From Geovibrio ferrireducens (GTDB lineage Bacteria > Chrysiogenota > Deferribacteres > Deferribacterales > Geovibrionaceae), in NCBI RefSeq assembly GCF_026226615.1, contig NZ_JAJAPB010000019.1:1-33340 (forward strand): a stretch of 33,340 nucleotides of DNA, written 5' to 3'. Under the pieces are notes generated by a model, which saw nothing but the letters and a program-made list of their open reading frames with translations, had not been told where the DNA came from and ran no database searches. The stretch's first letter is position 1. Each line of letters starts with the position of its first letter. Made by a program: the position numbers and the translations under genes. Of the stretch, positions 2,305 through 21,193 are shown one piece after another.

Positions 2305-3075
2305 ATGAACGGAATTCTGGCATTCATAGGCAGACCCTTTACAGTGATGAGCGTGGGCGCGGGCAGACTGTTTCTGCTTTTCTGGGAAACGCTGCGTGTA
2401 GCTTTTGTTCCCCCGTACAGATTCAGGCTGTTTATAAAGCAGGTTGAGTTCATAGGCGTAAACTCGCTTTCCGTCATAATACTCACCGGAAGCTTCACCG
2501 GGATGGTCTTCGCCTTTCAGAGCTATATAGGTTTCAGTAAGTTCGGCGCGGAATATCTGGTGGGAACGGTTGTAACCCTCGGTATGGCGCGGGAACTGGG
2601 GCCTGTTCTCTCAGCAATAATGGTGGCCGCGAGGGCAGGCTCTGCCATCACAGCCGAAATAGGCACAATGAAAGTTACCGAGCAGATAGACGCACTCTCC
2701 TCACTGGCGGTTGATCCGGTGCAGTATCTCTTTGTACCCCGCATCCTCGCGGGTGTTTTTGTGATGCCTCTGCTCAATGCTGTTGCCGTGTTCTGCGGTA
2801 CAGTCGGGGGTATTTTCGTCGGGGTAACTATTCTGGGAATAAACAAAACTCTCTATATGGAGAATATGTACCGCTACATAGACCTTTCAGACTTCATAAA
2901 CGGAATGGTAAAATCTGTTGTGTTCGGCCTTCTGGTAACCCTTGTGGGCTGCTACAAAGGCTACTACACATCGGGCGGAGCGGAAGGCGTGGGCAAAGCC
3001 ACCACAGAGTCCGTGGTTCTGGCATGCATTCTTATACTTGTTTTTGACTATATCCTCACGGCATTCATGTTTTAG
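2305..3075 (+). CDS. mlaE: Mla-type ABC transporter permease
   Basis: This is an inner-membrane permease of the MlaE family (256 residues), the transmembrane part of the MCE-linked ABC system that moves phospholipids between the inner membrane and the periplasm. It has several hydrophobic segments and the strongly conserved stretch GMARELGPVLSAIMVAARAGSAITAEIGTM, where the EIGTM turn contacts the ATPase. The Shine-Dalgarno-like AAGGAG lies 13 bases before the ATG, which is long, but no better in-frame start is seen. The ATPase and MCE genes follow directly; no mlaC or mlaB is visible in the window. Confidence 0.93.
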   Translation: MNGILAFIGRPFTVMSVGAGRLFLLFWETLRVAFVPPYRFRLFIKQVEFIGVNSLSVIILTGSFTGMVFAFQSYIGFSKFGAEYLVGTVVTLGMARELGPVLSAIMVAARAGSAITAEIGTMKVTEQIDALSSLAVDPVQYLFVPRILAGVFVMPLLNAVAVFCGTVGGIFVGVTILGINKTLYMENMYRYIDLSDFINGMVKSVVFGLLVTLVGCYKGYYTSGGAEGVGKATTESVVLACILILVFDYILTAFMF

Positions 3076-3083
3076 GCGGTCTC

Positions 3084-3839
3084 ATGGAATTTGCGATAGA
3101 ACTGAAAGACGTACATAAAAGCTTCGGTGAATACAAAATCCATAAAGGGATTAATATTCAGGTTCATAAAAACGCCATAACCTACATTATAGGCCCCTCC
3201 GGAACAGGAAAAAGCGTCCTCCTCAAGCAGATGTGCGGCCTCATGCCACCCACGAAAGGGGATGTGCTTGTGGATGGCAGAAGCATAGTGGGGCTTAAGG
3301 GAAAGGAACTGCTCGAACTGCGTAAGAAATTCGGCATCCTTTTTCAGAATGCCGCACTGTTTGACTCCATGACAGTTTTTGAGAACGTAGCCTTTCCCCT
3401 TTCGGAGCATACAAAGCTCAGTAAAAAACAGATCCATGACATAGTTATAGAAAAACTCCGCCTGGTTGGTCTGAGAAATATTGAAAACAAACTGCCTTCT
3501 GAGCTTTCTGGCGGCATGAAGAAAAGGGTCGGCCTGGCAAGAGCCATAGCGCTGGAGCCGGCAATAATACTTTACGATGAACCCACCACAGGCCTTGACC
3601 CTATCATGTGCGATGTGGTGGATAACCTGATAAACGATACACAGAAGGAGCTTAAGATAACCTCCGTAGTCATTTCGCACGATATAGACAGTGCCCTTAA
3701 AATTGCTGACTATATCGCAATGCTTTATGACGGAAAGGTTGTTCTCTTCGGCACTCCGGATGAGTTTAAATCCACGGATAATCCTTACGTGCGTCAGTTC
3801 CTTTCCGCTTCCATGGAAGGGCCCATAAAAGTAATATAA
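3084..3839 (+). CDS. mlaF: Mla-type ABC transporter ATP-binding protein
   Basis: This is the cytoplasmic ATPase partner of the MlaE permease, 251 residues. Visible motifs in order are Walker A (GPSGTGKS), a Q-loop region (FGILFQNAALFDSMTVFENV), the ABC signature (LSGGMKKR), Walker B (IILYDEPTTGLDP) and the switch histidine (VISHDI). The FQNAALFDSMTVFENVAFPL stretch is characteristic of MlaF rather than of amino-acid or antibiotic ABC proteins. It starts eight bases after mlaE ends and is followed after 14 bases by the MCE gene, so the three form one unit that would power lipid movement across the envelope. Confidence 0.95.
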   Translation: MEFAIELKDVHKSFGEYKIHKGINIQVHKNAITYIIGPSGTGKSVLLKQMCGLMPPTKGDVLVDGRSIVGLKGKELLELRKKFGILFQNAALFDSMTVFENVAFPLSEHTKLSKKQIHDIVIEKLRLVGLRNIENKLPSELSGGMKKRVGLARAIALEPAIILYDEPTTGLDPIMCDVVDNLINDTQKELKITSVVISHDIDSALKIADYIAMLYDGKVVLFGTPDEFKSTDNPYVRQFLSASMEGPIKVI

Positions 3840-3853
3840 GCGAGGGGTAATAG

Positions 3854-5404
3854 ATGAAAGCAGGACTGGAAGCCAAGGTTGGCGCCTTTGTAATCATATG
3901 CTTTGCATTGATAGGTTTTATGTCCCTTAAGGCCGGCTCATTTTCAGTGGGCAGTCACAAAGGCATGGAAATAAAAGCGGAGCTCCGCAACGCCGCAGGT
4001 CTCACGGCGGATTCCGCTGTTATGTTCAACGGTGTTGAGGTCGGCAAGGTCACATCAGTGAAGCTTGTAAACGGAAAGCCCATTGTTACCATGGTGATAG
4101 ACAAACAATATGAAATTCCCTCAAATGTCATACTCGCTGTACGCTCAAGCGGCTTCCTCGGTGAAAAATACGCCGAACTCCAGATGAAAAGCGATGAGTT
4201 TATCGGAATGCTGCAAAAAGATGATGTGATAAGGGAATCTGCAAGCTCCACGGATTTTGACGAACTCGGAAACAAACTGGGTGATATAGCGGGGGATGTA
4301 AAGGAGATAACATCCGCGCTGAAAGAGGTTCTCGCCACGGCAGAAGCTAAAGATCATATGAAGATGACCCTTGAAAATGTACGCTATACAACAGATATGC
4401 TCCGCGAAATCCTCGCTCAGAACGAGATGCGCGTAAACGCCATAATGCGCAATGTTGAATCACTCACAGGCTCGCTCAACAGCATTGCTGTGGGCAACCA
4501 GCAGAATATGAATGAAATAATAGCCAACATCCGCCTGATAACGGAAGATCTGCGGATGCAGACCCCGGTTATAGCAGAGAACCTCAAAAATGTTACAGGC
4601 GACATTGACGATATAGTCGGCGGCAACAAAAGCGACATAAATGATACGATAAAAAGCCTCCGCGCCGTCACAGCAAAGCTTGAAACCACTGTGGACAACA
4701 TGAACGACATCACCGGACAGATAAAATCCGGTGAAGGCACTGTGGGCAAGCTTATCTATGACAACAAAACCATTGATAACATGAACGAGACGCTCACAAG
4801 CCTTAAAAACACCATGGGCAAGCTTGACAAAATGAAAGTCTATCTCTCATTTGAAGGGCAGCATAACTTTGAGGAGAGCGAGAACAAAGGCGCATTCAGG
4901 CTCAGACTTGTCCCTAGTGATAAGAGATACTACCTCCTCGGACTTGAAACACATCCGAACGGCAGGGACAGCACTACAAAAGTGTCCCGCAAATACACTC
5001 AGCCGGGCTACGGTGAGCATTCGCAGGATTATGCTTACACAGAAACAGTCAACAAAGATGAGCTTACATTCACAGCAATGTATGCCCACAGGTTCTTTGA
5101 GAATTTCTATTTCCGCATAGGGCTTATGGAGTCTGATTTCGGCGTGGGGGCGGATATTTACCCTATACCCAAAAACAAAAACTTCGAGATAAAGCTTGAT
5201 GTTTACGATTTCCCCGACAAGGACGAAGACAGAAATGCCAACGTAAAAGCATACGCGAAGTATAAATTCTTAGAAAACTTCTTTGTGACCGGCGGCGTGG
5301 AAAACATAGCAAACAGCGACACGAGAACGCTTTTCCTCGGCGGCGGCGTTGAGTTTAATGATGATGACCTCAAGTACCTGCTGGGAAGTATTCCGTCATT
5401 TTAA
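3854..5404 (+). CDS. mlaD: MCE-domain (MlaD-like) protein with beta-barrel-like C-terminal region
   Basis: The first 30 residues contain a single membrane anchor (GAFVIICFALIGFMSL), followed by one MCE domain at about residues 36-117 (AELRNAAGLTADSAVMFNGVEVGKV, then VRSSGFLGEKYAEL). Residues of about 130-325 look helical or coiled, with repeated heptad-like segments. Residues of about 330-516 are different: about ten alternating polar/aromatic stretches separated by short turns, ending in phenylalanine, as expected of outer-membrane beta-strands. E. coli MlaD is only 183 residues and lacks this part. Seen: the anchor, the MCE domain and the strand pattern. Inferred: the protein could span from inner to outer membrane as a one-piece lipid bridge. 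GAGGGG precedes the ATG by seven bases. Confidence 0.9.
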   Translation: MKAGLEAKVGAFVIICFALIGFMSLKAGSFSVGSHKGMEIKAELRNAAGLTADSAVMFNGVEVGKVTSVKLVNGKPIVTMVIDKQYEIPSNVILAVRSSGFLGEKYAELQMKSDEFIGMLQKDDVIRESASSTDFDELGNKLGDIAGDVKEITSALKEVLATAEAKDHMKMTLENVRYTTDMLREILAQNEMRVNAIMRNVESLTGSLNSIAVGNQQNMNEIIANIRLITEDLRMQTPVIAENLKNVTGDIDDIVGGNKSDINDTIKSLRAVTAKLETTVDNMNDITGQIKSGEGTVGKLIYDNKTIDNMNETLTSLKNTMGKLDKMKVYLSFEGQHNFEESENKGAFRLRLVPSDKRYYLLGLETHPNGRDSTTKVSRKYTQPGYGEHSQDYAYTETVNKDELTFTAMYAHRFFENFYFRIGLMESDFGVGADIYPIPKNKNFEIKLDVYDFPDKDEDRNANVKAYAKYKFLENFFVTGGVENIANSDTRTLFLGGGVEFNDDDLKYLLGSIPSF

Positions 5405-8380: not shown

Positions 8381-8522
8381 ATAAGCTTCCTGAGTTGCAG
8401 CCCAGCAGCTTTTTATTTGTCATATATATTTTAACAATTTATTCAAAATTATATCGTATGATAGTTTTTCACTCAATGCGCTGTGTTATCTTTCCTTCAT
8501 ATCTTATATAGGAGGATGCACA
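8381..8522 (+). promoter_or_regulatory. AT-rich upstream region of the secreted flavoprotein gene
   Basis: This 142-base gap separates ptsP from the reductase cluster and probably holds the cluster promoter. I see an imperfect 24-base dyad at 8445-8468 with arms AAAANTAT and ATANTTTT, a TATGAT at 8457-8462 inside it and a TTAACA at 8431-8436; the spacing between these two boxes (20) is too long for a normal sigma-70 promoter. A strong AGGAGG at 8512-8517 sits seven bases before the ATG. The dyad is a plausible site for the Crp-type regulator encoded downstream, but that is inference. Confidence 0.35.
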
Positions 8523-10064
8523 ATGTTGCGTAATTTATTCATTTATTTTGTGATGATAGCACTATGTGCAACATCTGCTTTTGCGGCGCCTAAGCGTCAG
8601 ATTATCGAAACGGATGTTGTTGTCGTCGATTCAGGCCTTGCCGGGCTTTCTGCTGCTGCTGTTGCAGCGGAGAACGGTCTGAAGGTTTATCTCATTGAGA
8701 AGATGCCCACACTCGGTGGCGCAGCTCCGTTTGTTGAAGGAACATTTGCCGTTGAAAGCTATATGCAGAGGCAGTCTTCAGACAGGATTACAACAGATCA
8801 GGCATGGAATATGGCAATGGAGTTCAGCCACTGGAAAGCAAACGGCGCAGTTCTCAGAGCATTAATTAACCGCTCAGCGGAAAATGTGGACTGGATGAAA
8901 GAGCGCGGGGTAGTCTTTGAAAAAGTTCACACAGTAATATACAACGGCCCGAAGACCTGGCATTTGTTTCATGAAGGCTCAGGCGCTACAGCCGTTAAAA
9001 CCCTTGTTGATATAATCCATAAATCAGGCAACAAGACAATGACAGAAACAGCAGGGAAAAAACTCATTACGGACGGCAAAGGTAATGTCGTCGGGATAGT
9101 TGCAGAAAATACCGACAGCGGTGATGAGATTGAGTTCCGCACAAAAGGCGGTGTAATTCTCTGCACAGGCGGGTTTGCAAATAACCTGAATATGATGAAA
9201 AAATACATCGCAAACGCTGAACAGCTTGTAGCAGGCCCCAAAGCCGGACGTGCAGGTGATGGGATAAACATGGCAATGGCTGTTGGTGCAGGTACAGAGA
9301 GTATGGGTTCCCTGTTGGTGCTGGGCGGCATTCCCATAGGTCAGGATCCTAACCAGACTCTTACTGATACAACACCGCTCGGACAGATAACAAGTGTTCT
9401 CCGTCAGCCGCTTCTTTGGGTAAGCAAAGCCGGTAACCGCTTCTTTAATGAGCAGCACTCATCTGACTGGACAGTTTCTCAGAATGCAATTGAACGTGTC
9501 GGAAAAAGATATTTCGTCGTTATGGATCAGAACACTGTTAATGAGCTCAAAACATCAGGAACTTTAATGCCTTACAGTGACTGGGTTCCCGCAGGGACAA
9601 AACTCAATCTTATTGATGACGGTATTAGGGAAGGTGAGAAAAAAGGCTACGCTTTCAAAGCCGATACTATAGATGCCCTTGCAAAAAAAATAGGGGTTCC
9701 TGCCGAAAATCTTAAAAAAACTGTCGCAGATATTAACAAATTCACTGAATATAACTATGATGAGGTATTCGGGAAAGACAGAAGATTTCTCCGCAAAGTA
9801 GAAAATGGTCCTTTTTATGCAGTTGAAGGTGAACCGTCATTCATGAGTACAATAGGCGGTGTAAGGATTAACGCCAATATGCAGGCTGTCACAGATGATG
9901 ACACTCCCATAAGCGGTCTTTACGCAGCTGGTATAGATGCCGGAGGCATGTTCGGTGATACTTATGATCTTATAATGCCCGGTTCCCTGTCAAGCTATGC
10001 GGCAACAGGCGGCAGAATCGCTGCGGAGCATATTGCTGTAAAACTTGGTAAAATTAAAAAATAA
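8523..10064 (+). CDS. Periplasmic FAD-dependent reductase of the fumarate reductase/flavocytochrome c flavoprotein family, substrate unknown
   Basis: This 513-residue protein has a Sec signal peptide (residues 1-21, cut near AFA-A), an FAD-binding Rossmann start (about residues 30-60), a capping domain in the middle and a second FAD contact near the C-terminus (IGGVRINANMQ, then GLYAAGIDAGG). By family it should be the FAD subunit of a periplasmic reductase. The residues that define fumarate reductases are gone: the proton-donor Arg of the RD motif is Ser at about 314, the substrate His before the T-M/I-G-G motif is Met at about 441, the HPT histidine has no counterpart, and the NRLG arginine segment reads GDTYDLIMPGS. 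The dinucleotide motif begins Asp-Ser-Gly instead of Gly-Ser-Gly. No haem motif or FMN-binding domain is present, so electrons probably come from the cytochrome at 11904-12275. I cannot name the substrate; an unsaturated aromatic or steroid-like compound is possible. Confidence 0.85.
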   Translation: MLRNLFIYFVMIALCATSAFAAPKRQIIETDVVVVDSGLAGLSAAAVAAENGLKVYLIEKMPTLGGAAPFVEGTFAVESYMQRQSSDRITTDQAWNMAMEFSHWKANGAVLRALINRSAENVDWMKERGVVFEKVHTVIYNGPKTWHLFHEGSGATAVKTLVDIIHKSGNKTMTETAGKKLITDGKGNVVGIVAENTDSGDEIEFRTKGGVILCTGGFANNLNMMKKYIANAEQLVAGPKAGRAGDGINMAMAVGAGTESMGSLLVLGGIPIGQDPNQTLTDTTPLGQITSVLRQPLLWVSKAGNRFFNEQHSSDWTVSQNAIERVGKRYFVVMDQNTVNELKTSGTLMPYSDWVPAGTKLNLIDDGIREGEKKGYAFKADTIDALAKKIGVPAENLKKTVADINKFTEYNYDEVFGKDRRFLRKVENGPFYAVEGEPSFMSTIGGVRINANMQAVTDDDTPISGLYAAGIDAGGMFGDTYDLIMPGSLSSYAATGGRIAAEHIAVKLGKIKK

Positions 10065-10121: not shown

Positions 10122-10811
10122 ATGAGACAGGTATTTTTTCAAAAACCGTGGATCTACATTGAAGAACCGCCTCAACTCCGTGAAGTTTATTTAAAATATG
10201 GTTCTCCGGAATTATTAGGGCGCGGCACTCCCCTGATAAACGGAGGATCCGAAGGGAAATTTTATTATCTGAAAAAAGGATTGGCAGCATTCTCATTTCA
10301 GGACAAGCACGAACGAAGCTTTATTTTCAGCTTAGTTATTCCCGGACGTGCACTTGCCGATATTGACGGTCTGACAAGAGAATTGGTCAATGTAACTGAC
10401 AGTGTGATAAGACCTTCGGAAGTTTTAAGCATCACTTACGATGTATGGCAGAAACATATCGGCAATAATCCTGAGCTCATGCTCCTTTATACTAAGGGCG
10501 TGGTAGCAAAGGAGGAAACCCACATGGAAGCCATGATCGCAAACTATACTCTCAGTGTTCCGGAAAGACTGCGGGTATTCTTAAAAGTGCTTCTGACTTC
10601 GTATAATCCGGAAATTAAAGACGGCTGGAACATGCTCCCTATCTACCTTAGCCACAGGGAATACGCACAGATACTCGGAGCATCGGAAGTCACGGTTTGC
10701 CGCACGGTTGTTGAAATGTATGAGAAGAAATTAATGAGCAGAAACAAACGGAATATCTACGTTCATTCGTCACTCTTTGAAGACATATACGATTGGACCG
10801 AAATACAGTAG
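10122..10811 (+). CDS. Crp/Fnr-family transcriptional regulator
   Basis: The protein has 229 residues: an N-terminal cyclic-nucleotide-type beta-roll (about 20-115, including FYYLKKGLAAFSFQDKHERSFIFSLVIPGRAL), a long dimerisation helix, and a C-terminal winged helix (LSHREYAQILGASEVTVCRTVVEM, about 177-200). No N-terminal Fnr-type cysteine cluster is seen, so it should sense a small molecule rather than oxygen through an Fe-S cluster. The overall plan resembles effector-binding members such as the halophenol sensor CprK, but I do not claim orthology. Its place between the reductase and channel genes suggests it switches this cluster in response to the reductase substrate. The start follows a short weak ribosome-binding site (ACGG). 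Confidence 0.88.
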   Translation: MRQVFFQKPWIYIEEPPQLREVYLKYGSPELLGRGTPLINGGSEGKFYYLKKGLAAFSFQDKHERSFIFSLVIPGRALADIDGLTRELVNVTDSVIRPSEVLSITYDVWQKHIGNNPELMLLYTKGVVAKEETHMEAMIANYTLSVPERLRVFLKVLLTSYNPEIKDGWNMLPIYLSHREYAQILGASEVTVCRTVVEMYEKKLMSRNKRNIYVHSSLFEDIYDWTEIQ

Positions 10812-10920: not shown

Positions 10921-11838
10921 ATGTTATCGAGAAACATATTCACAACTTTTATAAATGCCGGAAAAATATCGGCTGCGCTCTGCCTGCTTTTACTGGCATG
11001 CACTTTTTCACCCGCAAATGCGCAGGATTATGCCCTTGGCTCTGAAGGTATCAAAGCAGCCAGTATACCGGGGCCGGGCTTTTACTACGTTATGTACAAC
11101 CAGTACTATTTTTCAGATCAATTCAGAGACAGCAGCGGTGACAAAATTGACAACTCACCTGAGATAAAAACATTTGCGAATGTCCACCGTTTCATATGGA
11201 TGACAAAAAAGAAATTCCTTGGCGCTGATTACGGAATGAATCTTATAATTCCTGCTGTTTATGCTGATATTCAAACCACTGCCGGCAATGACGATACATT
11301 TAACATAGGTGACACGACAATCGAACCTCTGACTCTTGCATGGCACGGCAAAAGGTATGACGCTGTCTTCGGAGTTGCCATGTATATCCCGACCGGAGAG
11401 TACAGCAAATCGGACTTAGCAAATACAGGCAGTGACCACTATACGCTGATGACAACATCCGGCGTAACCTTTTATCCGGATGAGGAAAAATTATGGAGCA
11501 TCTCTGTTTTGGGCAGACATGAGAAACACTTTGAAAACAGGGAGCTCGATATTACCTATGGAGATGACCTGAACCTGGAGTGGGGAATAGGGCGGATAAT
11601 AGGAACTTTCGATGTTGGTGTTTCCGGTTATGCTCATTGGCAGGTTACTGATGATTCCGGTTCGGATGTATCATGGGACAAATCTGTCCATGATAAAAAA
11701 TTCGGAATAGGTCCGGAGATCAACGCTTTCGTTCCCATGATCAACGGCCAAATAAAAGTAAAATACTACAAAGAGTTTGACTCAAAAGATTCAACAGAAG
11801 GCAATGCTCTCTGGATGACATTCTCAACAAAGCTTTAG
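10921..11838 (+). CDS. Outer-membrane channel of the PF13557 (MetA-pathway of phenol degradation / SphA-like) type
   Basis: This 305-residue protein starts with a long signal peptide that ends near ANA-QDY. The mature part alternates polar and hydrophobic residues in beta-strands and ends with FSTKL. GPGFYYVMYNQYYFSDQF near the mature N-terminus, GDTTIEPLTLAWHGKRYDAVFGVAMYIPTGEY and the following DHYTLMTTSGVTFYPD are typical of the PF13557 group, which is often found beside pathways for aromatic or other hydrophobic compounds. The likely role is entry of the reductase substrate, or exit of its product, across the outer membrane. A possible operator and -35 box lie upstream at 10852-10870. The cytochrome gene follows after a strong hairpin. 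Confidence 0.8.
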   Translation: MLSRNIFTTFINAGKISAALCLLLLACTFSPANAQDYALGSEGIKAASIPGPGFYYVMYNQYYFSDQFRDSSGDKIDNSPEIKTFANVHRFIWMTKKKFLGADYGMNLIIPAVYADIQTTAGNDDTFNIGDTTIEPLTLAWHGKRYDAVFGVAMYIPTGEYSKSDLANTGSDHYTLMTTSGVTFYPDEEKLWSISVLGRHEKHFENRELDITYGDDLNLEWGIGRIIGTFDVGVSGYAHWQVTDDSGSDVSWDKSVHDKKFGIGPEINAFVPMINGQIKVKYYKEFDSKDSTEGNALWMTFSTKL

Positions 11839-11903: not shown

Positions 11904-12275
11904 ATGTTTAATAATAAATATATAAATACTATTGTAATGTTTTCTGTAATGATGTTCATATCCTCTTTTGCAGGAGCAGATGACAAACATATAAATAAAA
12001 AGCATTCTGAAGCAGGGATCACATGCATTGACTGCCATCAGACAGAAACTCCTATTAAGGCAGCGCCTCAGAAGTATTGCATAGAATGCCATGCCGGTAT
12101 GGAAGCCAAAGAAATAACTACGCTGAAAAGCACTGACGGAAAAGAATATTCTGTAAACCCACATAATGCTCACACAGGTTCCTTAAGGTGTACATTATGC
12201 CATCATATTCATTCCCCTTCAGTGCTCTACTGCAATAAAGAGTGTCACCATTCATTCACAGTAAGCGTACCGTAG
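11904..12275 (+). CDS. Periplasmic tetrahaem cytochrome c (flavocytochrome c haem-domain type)
   Basis: This small secreted cytochrome (123 residues) has a signal peptide ending near FAGA and four haem-attachment sites: CIDCH (41-45), CIECH (59-63), CTLCH (96-100) and CNKECH (110-115). Spacing and surrounding residues resemble the N-terminal tetrahaem domain of Shewanella flavocytochrome c3 (PF14537), here a separate protein. The last site has three residues between the cysteines (CX3CH), which is unusual; the codons TGC AAT AAA GAG TGT CAC show this directly. It is expected to pass electrons to the flavoprotein at 8523-10064. A GGAG ribosome-binding site precedes the ATG. The MFS gene follows after eight bases. 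Confidence 0.9.
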   Translation: MFNNKYINTIVMFSVMMFISSFAGADDKHINKKHSEAGITCIDCHQTETPIKAAPQKYCIECHAGMEAKEITTLKSTDGKEYSVNPHNAHTGSLRCTLCHHIHSPSVLYCNKECHHSFTVSVP

Positions 12276-12283
12276 GCAAAAGT

Positions 12284-13468
12284 ATGTTTATGCAGAATAA
12301 GTTGCAAAAGCAGAAGTTTCTGATACTTTTTGCTGTAAATTTTTTAATCACACTGGCTTTTGCCGCAAATGATGCGCTTTTTCCATTGTTCTATAATGAG
12401 TTTTATTCGCACGGAGTGATGTTTGGGTTTGCTTTTGCTTTTTATGCTGCATCAAAAATACTATTTTCGCCGCTGGCAGGCAGTGTTATTGACAGATACG
12501 GTCCGCGAACAGTTCTTTTTTACGCAGTTGCGCTGTTTACCGTGGTTTCGGTCATGTTCAACTTGGCGCAGGATGAAAAAGTAATTTTAATATTAAGAGT
12601 GTTTCAGGGAATCGCGTGTGCTGTATTTCGCCCTGTAATATACTGTCTGCTTGAGTTTTCAGAAAAGCAAAAAGGAAAAGCTATCGGTATCTTTGACTTA
12701 TCGTTTTATTCTGCCGTTGCAGCAGCACCTTTGATCGGCAGTATTATTGTCGAAAAAGCCGGATTCAGCCATTTATTTTTATTTATAATGATTTGTTGTT
12801 TATTAAGTTTTTCACTTGCCTTTCTCATAGGCAAAACTAAAGAAACACCCGTTATCAAAGCAAAAAAAATACTCTGTAAAAAAGCGGCTGTCAGTATTTT
12901 AATGATTTATATCTTTTGCAGGGCATGGGGAATCTCCGCCATCACGGTTTTTCTTCCAATATACCTTAGCGGACAATCTGTATCAGTCAAAGAAATAGGC
13001 TTGGCCTTAAGTTTGTCAGCGGCTGTAACGGCTTTATTCCTGCCTTTCACCGGGAGATTAGCGGATTATTTTCATAAAGAGCTGCTTATCACCTGCGGAG
13101 GAGTGGCTGTGTCGCTTCTGCTTATTGCGACTGTGTTAGTTAACAGTTATGTTCATCTGCTTGCCGTACTTCTTTTCAGCGGAGTATTCAGCGCTGTTTC
13201 ACAGCCGGCCTGCACAGCCTTGCTGTTTGAACACAGCGAAGCAGGTTCAAGGGGCAGCATTATTGGACATTTTAATATGTTTATGGGGCTTGGATTTGCG
13301 TGCAGCCCTGTTTTTAGCTCAATACTCTTAAAATATGCCGGGATTAAATCAGTTTTTGTCTTTTCAGGGCTTATGGGATTAGTGTCAGCAATTGCTTTCT
13401 GTTTAATAACATACAGCAGAACTTCAGCGCAGAACCTATGGAACGCGGGCAAAGCCGCCGGAACATAA
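12284..13468 (+). CDS. Major facilitator superfamily transporter
   Basis: This inner-membrane protein has about 12 predicted hydrophobic helices and 394 residues. The loop motif between helices 2 and 3 (GSVIDRYGPRTVL) matches the MFS signature, and a related form recurs in the second half (GRLADYFHKELLI). The frame stays open to a GTG at 12242, but that would overlap the cytochrome; ATG 12284, seven bases after AGG, is the better start. Its position at the end of the reductase cluster suggests transport of the substrate or product. Direction and substrate cannot be read from the sequence. Confidence 0.85.
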   Translation: MFMQNKLQKQKFLILFAVNFLITLAFAANDALFPLFYNEFYSHGVMFGFAFAFYAASKILFSPLAGSVIDRYGPRTVLFYAVALFTVVSVMFNLAQDEKVILILRVFQGIACAVFRPVIYCLLEFSEKQKGKAIGIFDLSFYSAVAAAPLIGSIIVEKAGFSHLFLFIMICCLLSFSLAFLIGKTKETPVIKAKKILCKKAAVSILMIYIFCRAWGISAITVFLPIYLSGQSVSVKEIGLALSLSAAVTALFLPFTGRLADYFHKELLITCGGVAVSLLLIATVLVNSYVHLLAVLLFSGVFSAVSQPACTALLFEHSEAGSRGSIIGHFNMFMGLGFACSPVFSSILLKYAGIKSVFVFSGLMGLVSAIAFCLITYSRTSAQNLWNAGKAAGT

Positions 13469-13494
13469 AAAAAAGCGGGCTGATGCGCCCGCTT
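13467..13494 (-). terminator. Intrinsic terminator of the purB operon, shared with the MFS gene
   Basis: AAGCGGGC at 13473-13480 pairs with GCCCGCTT at 13487-13494 around loop TGATGC. On the minus strand the stem is followed by eight T residues, a strong intrinsic terminator for purB. On the plus strand it can stop transcription from the MFS gene less efficiently. Confidence 0.85.
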
Positions 13495-13504
13495 CGCTGT
13501 TTCT

Positions 13505-20212: not shown

Positions 20213-21193
20213 TCAGATACCGTATTTGCGGCGTTTTCTTGTGAGGGTTGAAAGGTCTATACAGAGTTTTCCGGCTGCATCCAAAAGAGTCCGGGATTTT
20301 TGCAGAGCATCTTTTATCAGTTCTTTTTCGTATTGCTCAAGCCTGTATTTAAGAGAGTCCCTTATCTTTTCCCCTTTTAAAGCGGTTATTCCGCATTCCG
20401 AATAAATATAATCCGGCCTGATGCACGGCACAGGGCTCAGCAGAACAAGCTTCTCCACCACATGCCGCAGTTCACGGATGTTGCCGAACCACTCATAAGC
20501 CGTAAGCAGCTCTATGGATTCCCTGTCAAAGAAGACATTCTTCTTGTATTTGTTATTATAGACTTTGCAGAAATAATTGATGAAATGAGGAATCTCCTCT
20601 TTTCTATCCTTCAGCGGAGGAAGCTCAATTTCAACGGTACTGAGCCTGTAGTACAGGTCTTCTCTGAAAAAAGCGTTTTCTATCTGAGTTTTGATTGCTT
20701 TATTTGTTGCCGCGATAATCCTCACATCAGCAGACAGGGTCTTTTTTCCGCCTATTTTTACAAACTGCTTATGCTCAAGAAATGTAAGGAGCTTTGATTG
20801 AAGCTCAAGGGGCATATCCCCTATTTCATCCAGAAAAAGCGTTCCTCCGGCGGCCTGTTCGATAAAACCTTCATATCCGCCCTTCAATGCACCTGTAAAT
20901 GCGCCCTGTTCGTAGCCGAACATTTTGGACTCAAAAAGCTGTTCGGGGATAGCACTGCAGTTTATATGAATGAAGCTGCCGCCCATGCGGCTTTCGTTAT
21001 GGATAAAGTAAGCTAATTTATCCTTCCCGGTTCCGGATTCGCCGGTAATCAGGACAGATACATTGTAAGGAGCCACATGCGCGGCCTTGGAGTATATCTT
21101 CCGCATACTGCCGCATTCGACAACGAAACCATCGCCGAAGGAACAGGCGGTGTGCTCTGTCCTGAAACCGCTACCTGAAGCTGAAACAGACAC
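20213..21193 (-). CDS. Sigma-54-dependent activator lacking a sensor domain (PspF-like size)
   Basis: This 326-residue enhancer-binding protein has only about 20 residues before its AAA+ domain. Walker A is GESGTGKD (about 51-58), the sigma-54-contact loop is GAFTGA (97-102), Walker B is TLFLDEIGD (118-126), and a Fis-type helix-turn-helix lies at the C-terminus (LLDAAGKLCIDLSTLTRKRRKYG). There is no receiver, GAF or PAS domain; the upstream in-frame sequence runs only to a stop 60 bases before the start and shows no domain, so this is not a recent truncation inside the window. The start is GTG with AGGG upstream. Activity is probably controlled by a partner protein or by amount. The convergent porin with a -24/-12 promoter is the obvious target. 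Confidence 0.9.
   Translation of the reverse strand: MSVSASGSGFRTEHTACSFGDGFVVECGSMRKIYSKAAHVAPYNVSVLITGESGTGKDKLAYFIHNESRMGGSFIHINCSAIPEQLFESKMFGYEQGAFTGALKGGYEGFIEQAAGGTLFLDEIGDMPLELQSKLLTFLEHKQFVKIGGKKTLSADVRIIAATNKAIKTQIENAFFREDLYYRLSTVEIELPPLKDRKEEIPHFINYFCKVYNNKYKKNVFFDRESIELLTAYEWFGNIRELRHVVEKLVLLSPVPCIRPDYIYSECGITALKGEKIRDSLKYRLEQYEKELIKDALQKSRTLLDAAGKLCIDLSTLTRKRRKYGI

Follow-up and report, generated by a model that had tools for sequence, protein, structure and literature searches.

What does a flavoprotein of the fumarate-reductase family do once the residues that bind and protonate the dicarboxylate have been replaced? The question is raised by a gene in the window, i.e. the whole stretch of 33,340 nucleotides of Geovibrio ferrireducens DNA analysed here. 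A sequence-only reading of this DNA had described the replacements, and it had predicted an enzyme without the classical mode of dicarboxylate binding, with Tyr481 as a possible new acid. Its open reading frame was exact in frame, length and coordinates (Table 1).

Table 1. Features of the flavoprotein gene and its operon (positions in the window; Fcc3, flavocytochrome c3)
Feature	Position	Strand	Basis or remark
Terminator-like stem between the upstream gene and the operon	8392..8411	+	number of regional matches at chance level
Ribosome-binding site GGAGG, ATG 7 nt downstream	8511..8515	+	read from the sequence
Exported VprA-like FAD_binding_2 flavoprotein, 513 aa	8523..10064	+	VprA clade, dN/dS
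Predicted N-terminal signal peptide, residues 1-21, ending AFA	8523..8585	+	sequence inspection only
Codon 36, GAT = Asp, at the first Gly of GxGxxG	8628..8630	+	62-sequence alignment
W146-H147; W146, family mark common to VprA; H147, aligned with Fcc3 H245	8958..8963	+	alignments
Ser314; aligned with Fcc3 R402 and KstD1 Y318 in a column that is hypervariable across the family	9462..9464	+	alignments
Met441; column of Fcc3 H504, His in no family member	9843..9845	+	alignments
D479-T-Y481-D-L-I-M-P-G487, replacing N-R544-L-G; Y481/G487 aligned with KstD1 Y487/G491	9957..9983	+	alignments
Crp/Fnr-family regulator	10122..10811	+	homologues adjoin 15/38 family members
Outer-membrane protein PF13557 (Phenol_MetA_deg)	10921..11838	+	homologues adjoin 14/38 family members
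Exported tetraheme cytochrome c (PF14537), probable electron donor	11904..12275	+	linkage in 37/38
MFS transporter	12242..13468	+	homologues within 5 kb of 31/38 family members
Terminator-like stem between MFS and purB	13472..13495	both	9 pairs, 6 GC

The gene and its product

The flavoprotein scored 161.7 bits against PF00890 (FAD_binding_2), far above the gathering score of 20.4. Its leader looks like a Sec signal peptide, as predicted by inspection, and the N-termini of the homologues are alike in this region. Comparison with two orthologues gave a dN/dS of about 0.03, synonymous sites being nearly saturated; apart from codon 36 the gene is under strong purifying selection. An AlphaFold2 model, for which the flavoprotein and its orthologue from L007 were the only two input sequences, had a pLDDT of 31. 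Further homologues were sought in viral contigs and none were found.

Codon 36 is GAT in the query and GGT in its two close orthologues. The first position of the GxGxxG motif was Gly in 61 of the 62 aligned sequences, Asp36 being confined to the query genome. The intact dinucleotide-binding motif of FAD_binding_2 proteins is thus missing from this allele, and the earlier view that the FAD-contact motifs remain was wrong on this point. Asp36 can be explained as an error in the sequence, a lesion of this strain or a change that the protein tolerates; it may impair FAD binding in the query allele.

Replacement of the fumarate-reductase residues

Residues were mapped in a multiple alignment of 62 sequences and in a profile-profile alignment with Fcc3. 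Family columns were read from 37 aligned Deferribacterota homologues, some of which are near-identical and hence not independent. The translation reads S313-S314-D315, M441-S442-T443-I444-G445-G446 and D479-T-Y-D-L-I-M-P-G-S488, and so agrees with the losses described before: Ser at 314, Met441 two residues ahead of T-I-G-G, no HPT, and DTYDLIMPGS at 479-488. Both alignments paired R402 of Fcc3 with Ser314, H504 with Met441, H365 with Leu267, T377 with Ile289 and E378 with Thr290. R544 was paired with Tyr481 in the profile alignment and followed by the small insertion suspected near the N-R-L-G segment, while the multiple alignment placed Tyr481 in an adjacent insertion. Thus the proton donor of Fcc3 (R402) and its substrate contacts (H504, R544, H365) are replaced by Ser314, Met441, Tyr481 and Leu267. 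Against the flavocytochrome c model TIGR01813 the query reached 216 bits, below the cut-off of 285.

These replacements do not mark a single odd enzyme, they belong to the family. The R402 column held ten different residues in the 37 members, Arg only once, and among the positions of the protein it ranked near the 95th percentile for variability. Residues in the H504 column were limited to L, F, Y, M, C and I, with no His; the H365 column had His in three members. On the other hand, Tyr481, Gly487, Gly475 and Tyr432 were invariant, and His147 and Glu310 were each kept in 36 of 37. With His never at H504, a single Arg at R402 and an invariant Tyr481/Gly487 pair, the losses exceed chance.

Two alternatives bear on this pattern. 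One is a degenerate copy that lost its function together with the catalytic residues, none of the classical set being left; Asp36, seen in no other genome, would fit such decay. Yet the open reading frame is full-length, its dN/dS is low, the operon is conserved, Tyr481, Gly487 and Tyr432 do not vary throughout the family, and Asp36 itself is possibly a sequencing error. We consider an inactive copy very improbable. The other is that the enzyme is still a dicarboxylate reductase, with an Arg and a His supplied from elsewhere in the chain. In the 37-member alignment no family-conserved Arg was found that could replace the lost ones: the only conserved ones, R306 and R498, are shared with Fcc3. 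As for His, His103 is conserved in 31 of the 37 members and in VprA and is the sole conserved family-specific His, which speaks for this reading. The conserved His147 was rejected as a relocated catalytic His because the same column holds a His in Fcc3 (H245) and it is therefore ancestral. Positions 441 and 314 are hydrophobic or variable, and monocarboxylate reductases of the superfamily retain the clamp (PMC4427408, PMC7921117). We consider a dicarboxylate reductase of this kind very improbable as well. With clamp and acid residues gone from query and family alike, and no conserved Arg in their place, the prediction that a dicarboxylate should not be bound classically is supported.

Tyr481 and Gly487

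A Tyr/Gly pair like Tyr481/Gly487 is also found in VprA, KstD1 and AcmB, and the Tyr alone also in TcuA. In the profile alignment two extra residues lie between Tyr481 and Gly487 as compared with Tyr487 and Gly491 of KstD1. Tyr487 of KstD1 hydrogen-bonds the 3-keto group of the substrate (PMC8220720), the KstD Tyr thus binding the keto oxygen (PMC8220720, PMC9736390), and in AcmB the carbanion is stabilised by three tyrosines, Tyr536 among them (PMC9736390). In Cgr2, mutants showed Gly536 to be important, but not the matching Tyr532 (PMC5953540). Because Tyr481 aligns with the keto-binding Tyr487 of KstD it is not new; judged by the alignment, it is a known alternative anchor. Of the proposed new acid, the novelty is therefore lost, while the acid role is possible but speculative. 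The catalytic base Tyr318 of KstD and Tyr363 of AcmB share a column with R402 of Fcc3 and Ser314, so that the query has the KstD pair but Ser in place of the base.

Relationship to vinyl phenol reductase

The best NCBIfam model for the query was vinyl phenol reductase VprA (NF053717) with 375 bits, far short of the equivalog cut-off of 600; identity to VprA was 33%. L078, a protein encoded on a plasmid of Lactiplantibacillus plantarum, reached 784 bits with the same model, i.e. above the cut-off. It carries the motifs TWH and GDTYGPNMPGT, the query TWH and GDTYDLIMPGS, and both also have N321 and D472 in common. One clade of the tree (98/89) united the query family with VprA, an Agrobacterium protein and a Rhizobium protein, the branching order within it not being resolved, while Fcc3 with UrdA (100/99) and KstD with AcmB (100/99) fell outside. 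The query thus has all features of a VprA-like clade: TWH, N321, D472, [ST]-Y481, G487 and the grouping with VprA. A tree had been proposed as the way to find characterised reductases with this motif, and VprA is such a reductase, with GDTY..MPG and in the same clade. Its substrates are vinylphenol, vinylcatechol and vinylguaiacol, from all of which a carboxylate is absent (PMC10295242).

One Deferribacterota genome (G026) has more than ten VprA-like flavoprotein genes, most with a cytochrome of their own (L044, L046, L052-L055, L062-L064). Tat-exported FAD_binding_2 proteins at L038, L052, L067, L074 and L075 form a separate clade, sister to the VprA-like one, and adjoin a four- or five-haem cytochrome. 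In the family member at L067 (G018:C1:1644659-1646176) an in-frame TAG near the start splits the open reading frame.

Operon and cytochrome linkage

The flavoprotein gene is the first of five same-strand genes of an operon, followed by those for the Crp regulator, the PF13557 outer-membrane protein, the tetraheme cytochrome c and the MFS transporter. Promoter and terminator scans of the region yielded nothing beyond chance level. A multiheme cytochrome c gene lay within 5 kb of the family member in 37 of 38 loci and within 1.3 kb in 33. PF14537 has 15 matches in the 2.97 Mb of the query genome; roughly estimated, a randomly chosen place would have a match equally near in about 6% of cases. The pairing of an exported flavoprotein with a separate multiheme cytochrome c gene, as in Mrd/Mcc, is thus found here and in nearly all family loci. 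The query genome has one NapC/NirT-type protein, which could pass electrons from quinol.

The neighbours vary. An OprD-type porin adjoins some other family members. In the orthologous operon of a congener (L041, G021:C13) the PF13557 gene is absent, compared with L040 and the window; PF13557 genes with 51-56% identity adjoin the Tat-exported proteins of L038, L052 and L067, and the gene seems to move between modules. Solved structures gave no clue to the substrate of the PF13557 protein. Phenol sensing of the CprK type by the adjacent Crp protein found no support, the PDB matches being NtcA and CRP only. In the subfamily of L060 and L062-L069 the partner cytochrome is not tetraheme, having 215-227 residues and about seven haem motifs, with a PF13557 neighbour; Mcc of the methacrylate system is likewise a seven-haem protein. 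Elsewhere in the window, 2305-5404 holds an ordinary row of MlaE/MlaF/MlaD-like lipid transport genes, and 20213-21193 encodes a sigma-54 activator-like AAA+ protein with a GTG start and no obvious sensor domain.

Proposed function

From the observed replacements, clade, operon and conserved cytochrome linkage we infer direction, substrate class and proton donor. The flavoprotein is probably a periplasmic, cytochrome-fed FAD ene-reductase of the VprA-like clade, acting on a substrate whose double bond bears no carboxylate. Of the classical residues, methacrylate reductase retains two Arg and one His (PMC4427408); in UrdA the carboxylate contacts are kept along with the proton donor, Arg411 (PMC7921117). 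Whereas these enzymes keep their clamp, the query lost it jointly, which argues for a non-carboxylate substrate.

Quinol electrons would enter a periplasmic cytochrome pool, from which the tetraheme cytochrome would reduce the FAD. N5 of FAD would then deliver a hydride to a conjugated C=C of a substrate without the carboxylate of fumarate, urocanate or methacrylate. Tyr481 and the backbone of Gly487 would hold or polarise an oxygen of the substrate (phenol or keto), like Tyr487 and Gly491 of KstD, and position 314, once the acid site, would now belong to a variable pocket that sets specificity. Candidate proton sources are Tyr481, the conserved His103 or His147, and solvent.

The flavin could also work in the oxidising direction, as a periplasmic dehydrogenase like KstD or TcuA that passes substrate electrons to the tetraheme cytochrome. 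The Tyr481/Gly487 pair shared with KstD1 and AcmB, the Tyr shared with TcuA, and neighbours that would suit nutrient uptake (outer-membrane protein and MFS) are in line with this. But VprA, the closest characterised enzyme, is a reductase, the base Tyr318 of KstD is absent and its position hypervariable, and low-potential tetraheme cytochromes of such kind usually supply reductases, e.g. Fcc3 and Mrd (PMC4427408). Hence a dehydrogenase is improbable.

As to the substrate of the proposed ene-reductase, a vinylphenol-like phenolic alkene is our leading guess, albeit a tentative one. A narrower form, namely a true vinylphenol reductase equivalent to VprA with 4-vinylphenols as natural acceptors, is rather unlikely. 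VprA is the closest characterised homologue, shares GDTY..MPG, and the neighbouring outer-membrane protein belongs to a phenol-degradation family (PF13557); against this, score and identity are low, and the many paralogues with varied pockets make it probable that substrates differ. Moreover, a PAD gene, the product of which makes vinylphenol, was absent from the four genomes checked, so that no endogenous vinylphenol source via PAD was found there.

More broadly, it is conceivable, though short of an even chance, that Deferribacterota diversified periplasmic respiratory reductases that use carboxylate-free alkenes such as phenolic styrenes and enones as terminal acceptors, built on a VprA-like scaffold with a fixed Tyr/Gly anchor, a hypervariable former proton-donor position, an own cytochrome and usually an own transporter. 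If true, anaerobic respiration on organic acceptors would reach past unsaturated acids to carboxylate-free compounds, and this in a poorly studied phylum of which a single genome (G026) has more than ten such genes. It would also provide a practical rule for proteins misannotated as 'fumarate reductases': those that have lost R402, H504 and R544 and carry [ST]-Y...G would act on a non-carboxylate substrate. Since the column of the old proton donor is hypervariable, the family allows one to test how specificity evolves while the scaffold stays fixed.

Comparison with known systems

Separate flavoprotein and cytochrome gene pairs are already known from 147 clusters in 108 genomes (PMC8238504), and so is VprA. 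The branch of VprA-like proteins that are exported, linked to a cytochrome and repeatedly duplicated appears to be new; no description of it was found in the literature, our coverage of which is incomplete.

Fcc3 and UrdA share the FAD_binding_2 fold with the query, are its best PDB matches and resemble it in cytochrome- or flavin-linked respiration. However, they form a separate clade, and their carboxylate and acid residues are all replaced in the query. Mrd/Mcc of Geobacter sulfurreducens AM-1, with homologues in Denitrovibrio, consists like the query system of an exported flavoprotein and a separate multiheme cytochrome c gene, and it reduces a C=C bond in respiration (PMC4427408). Yet Mrd has a Tat signal and keeps R353, R501 and H461 (PMC4427408), none of which the query has. 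KstD1 and AcmB match the query in the Tyr/Gly pair, but they belong to another clade, have a base, Tyr318 in KstD1, that is missing in the query, and their loop is two residues shorter. Cgr2, the digoxin reductase of Eggerthella lenta, resembles the query by description: it lacks six of seven fumarate-reductase residues, has the KstD Tyr/Gly pair and is encoded with Cgr1, for which a role in electron transfer was proposed (PMC5953540). Unlike the query it requires [4Fe-4S] clusters and is Tat-exported.

The closest characterised relative remains VprA, which has TWH, E310, N321, D472, GDTY..MPG and G487 in common with the query and has lost the residues at the R402 and H504 positions as well. 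vprA adjoins the LysR-type vprR. The plasmid copy (L078) adjoins a LysR regulator too and has no signal peptide, while the query is exported; VprA of Lactiplantibacillus has no neighbouring cytochrome, whereas the query has a Crp regulator, a tetraheme cytochrome, an outer-membrane protein and an MFS transporter beside it. Because VprA is without signal peptide and adjacent cytochrome, its physiology differs from that of the query.
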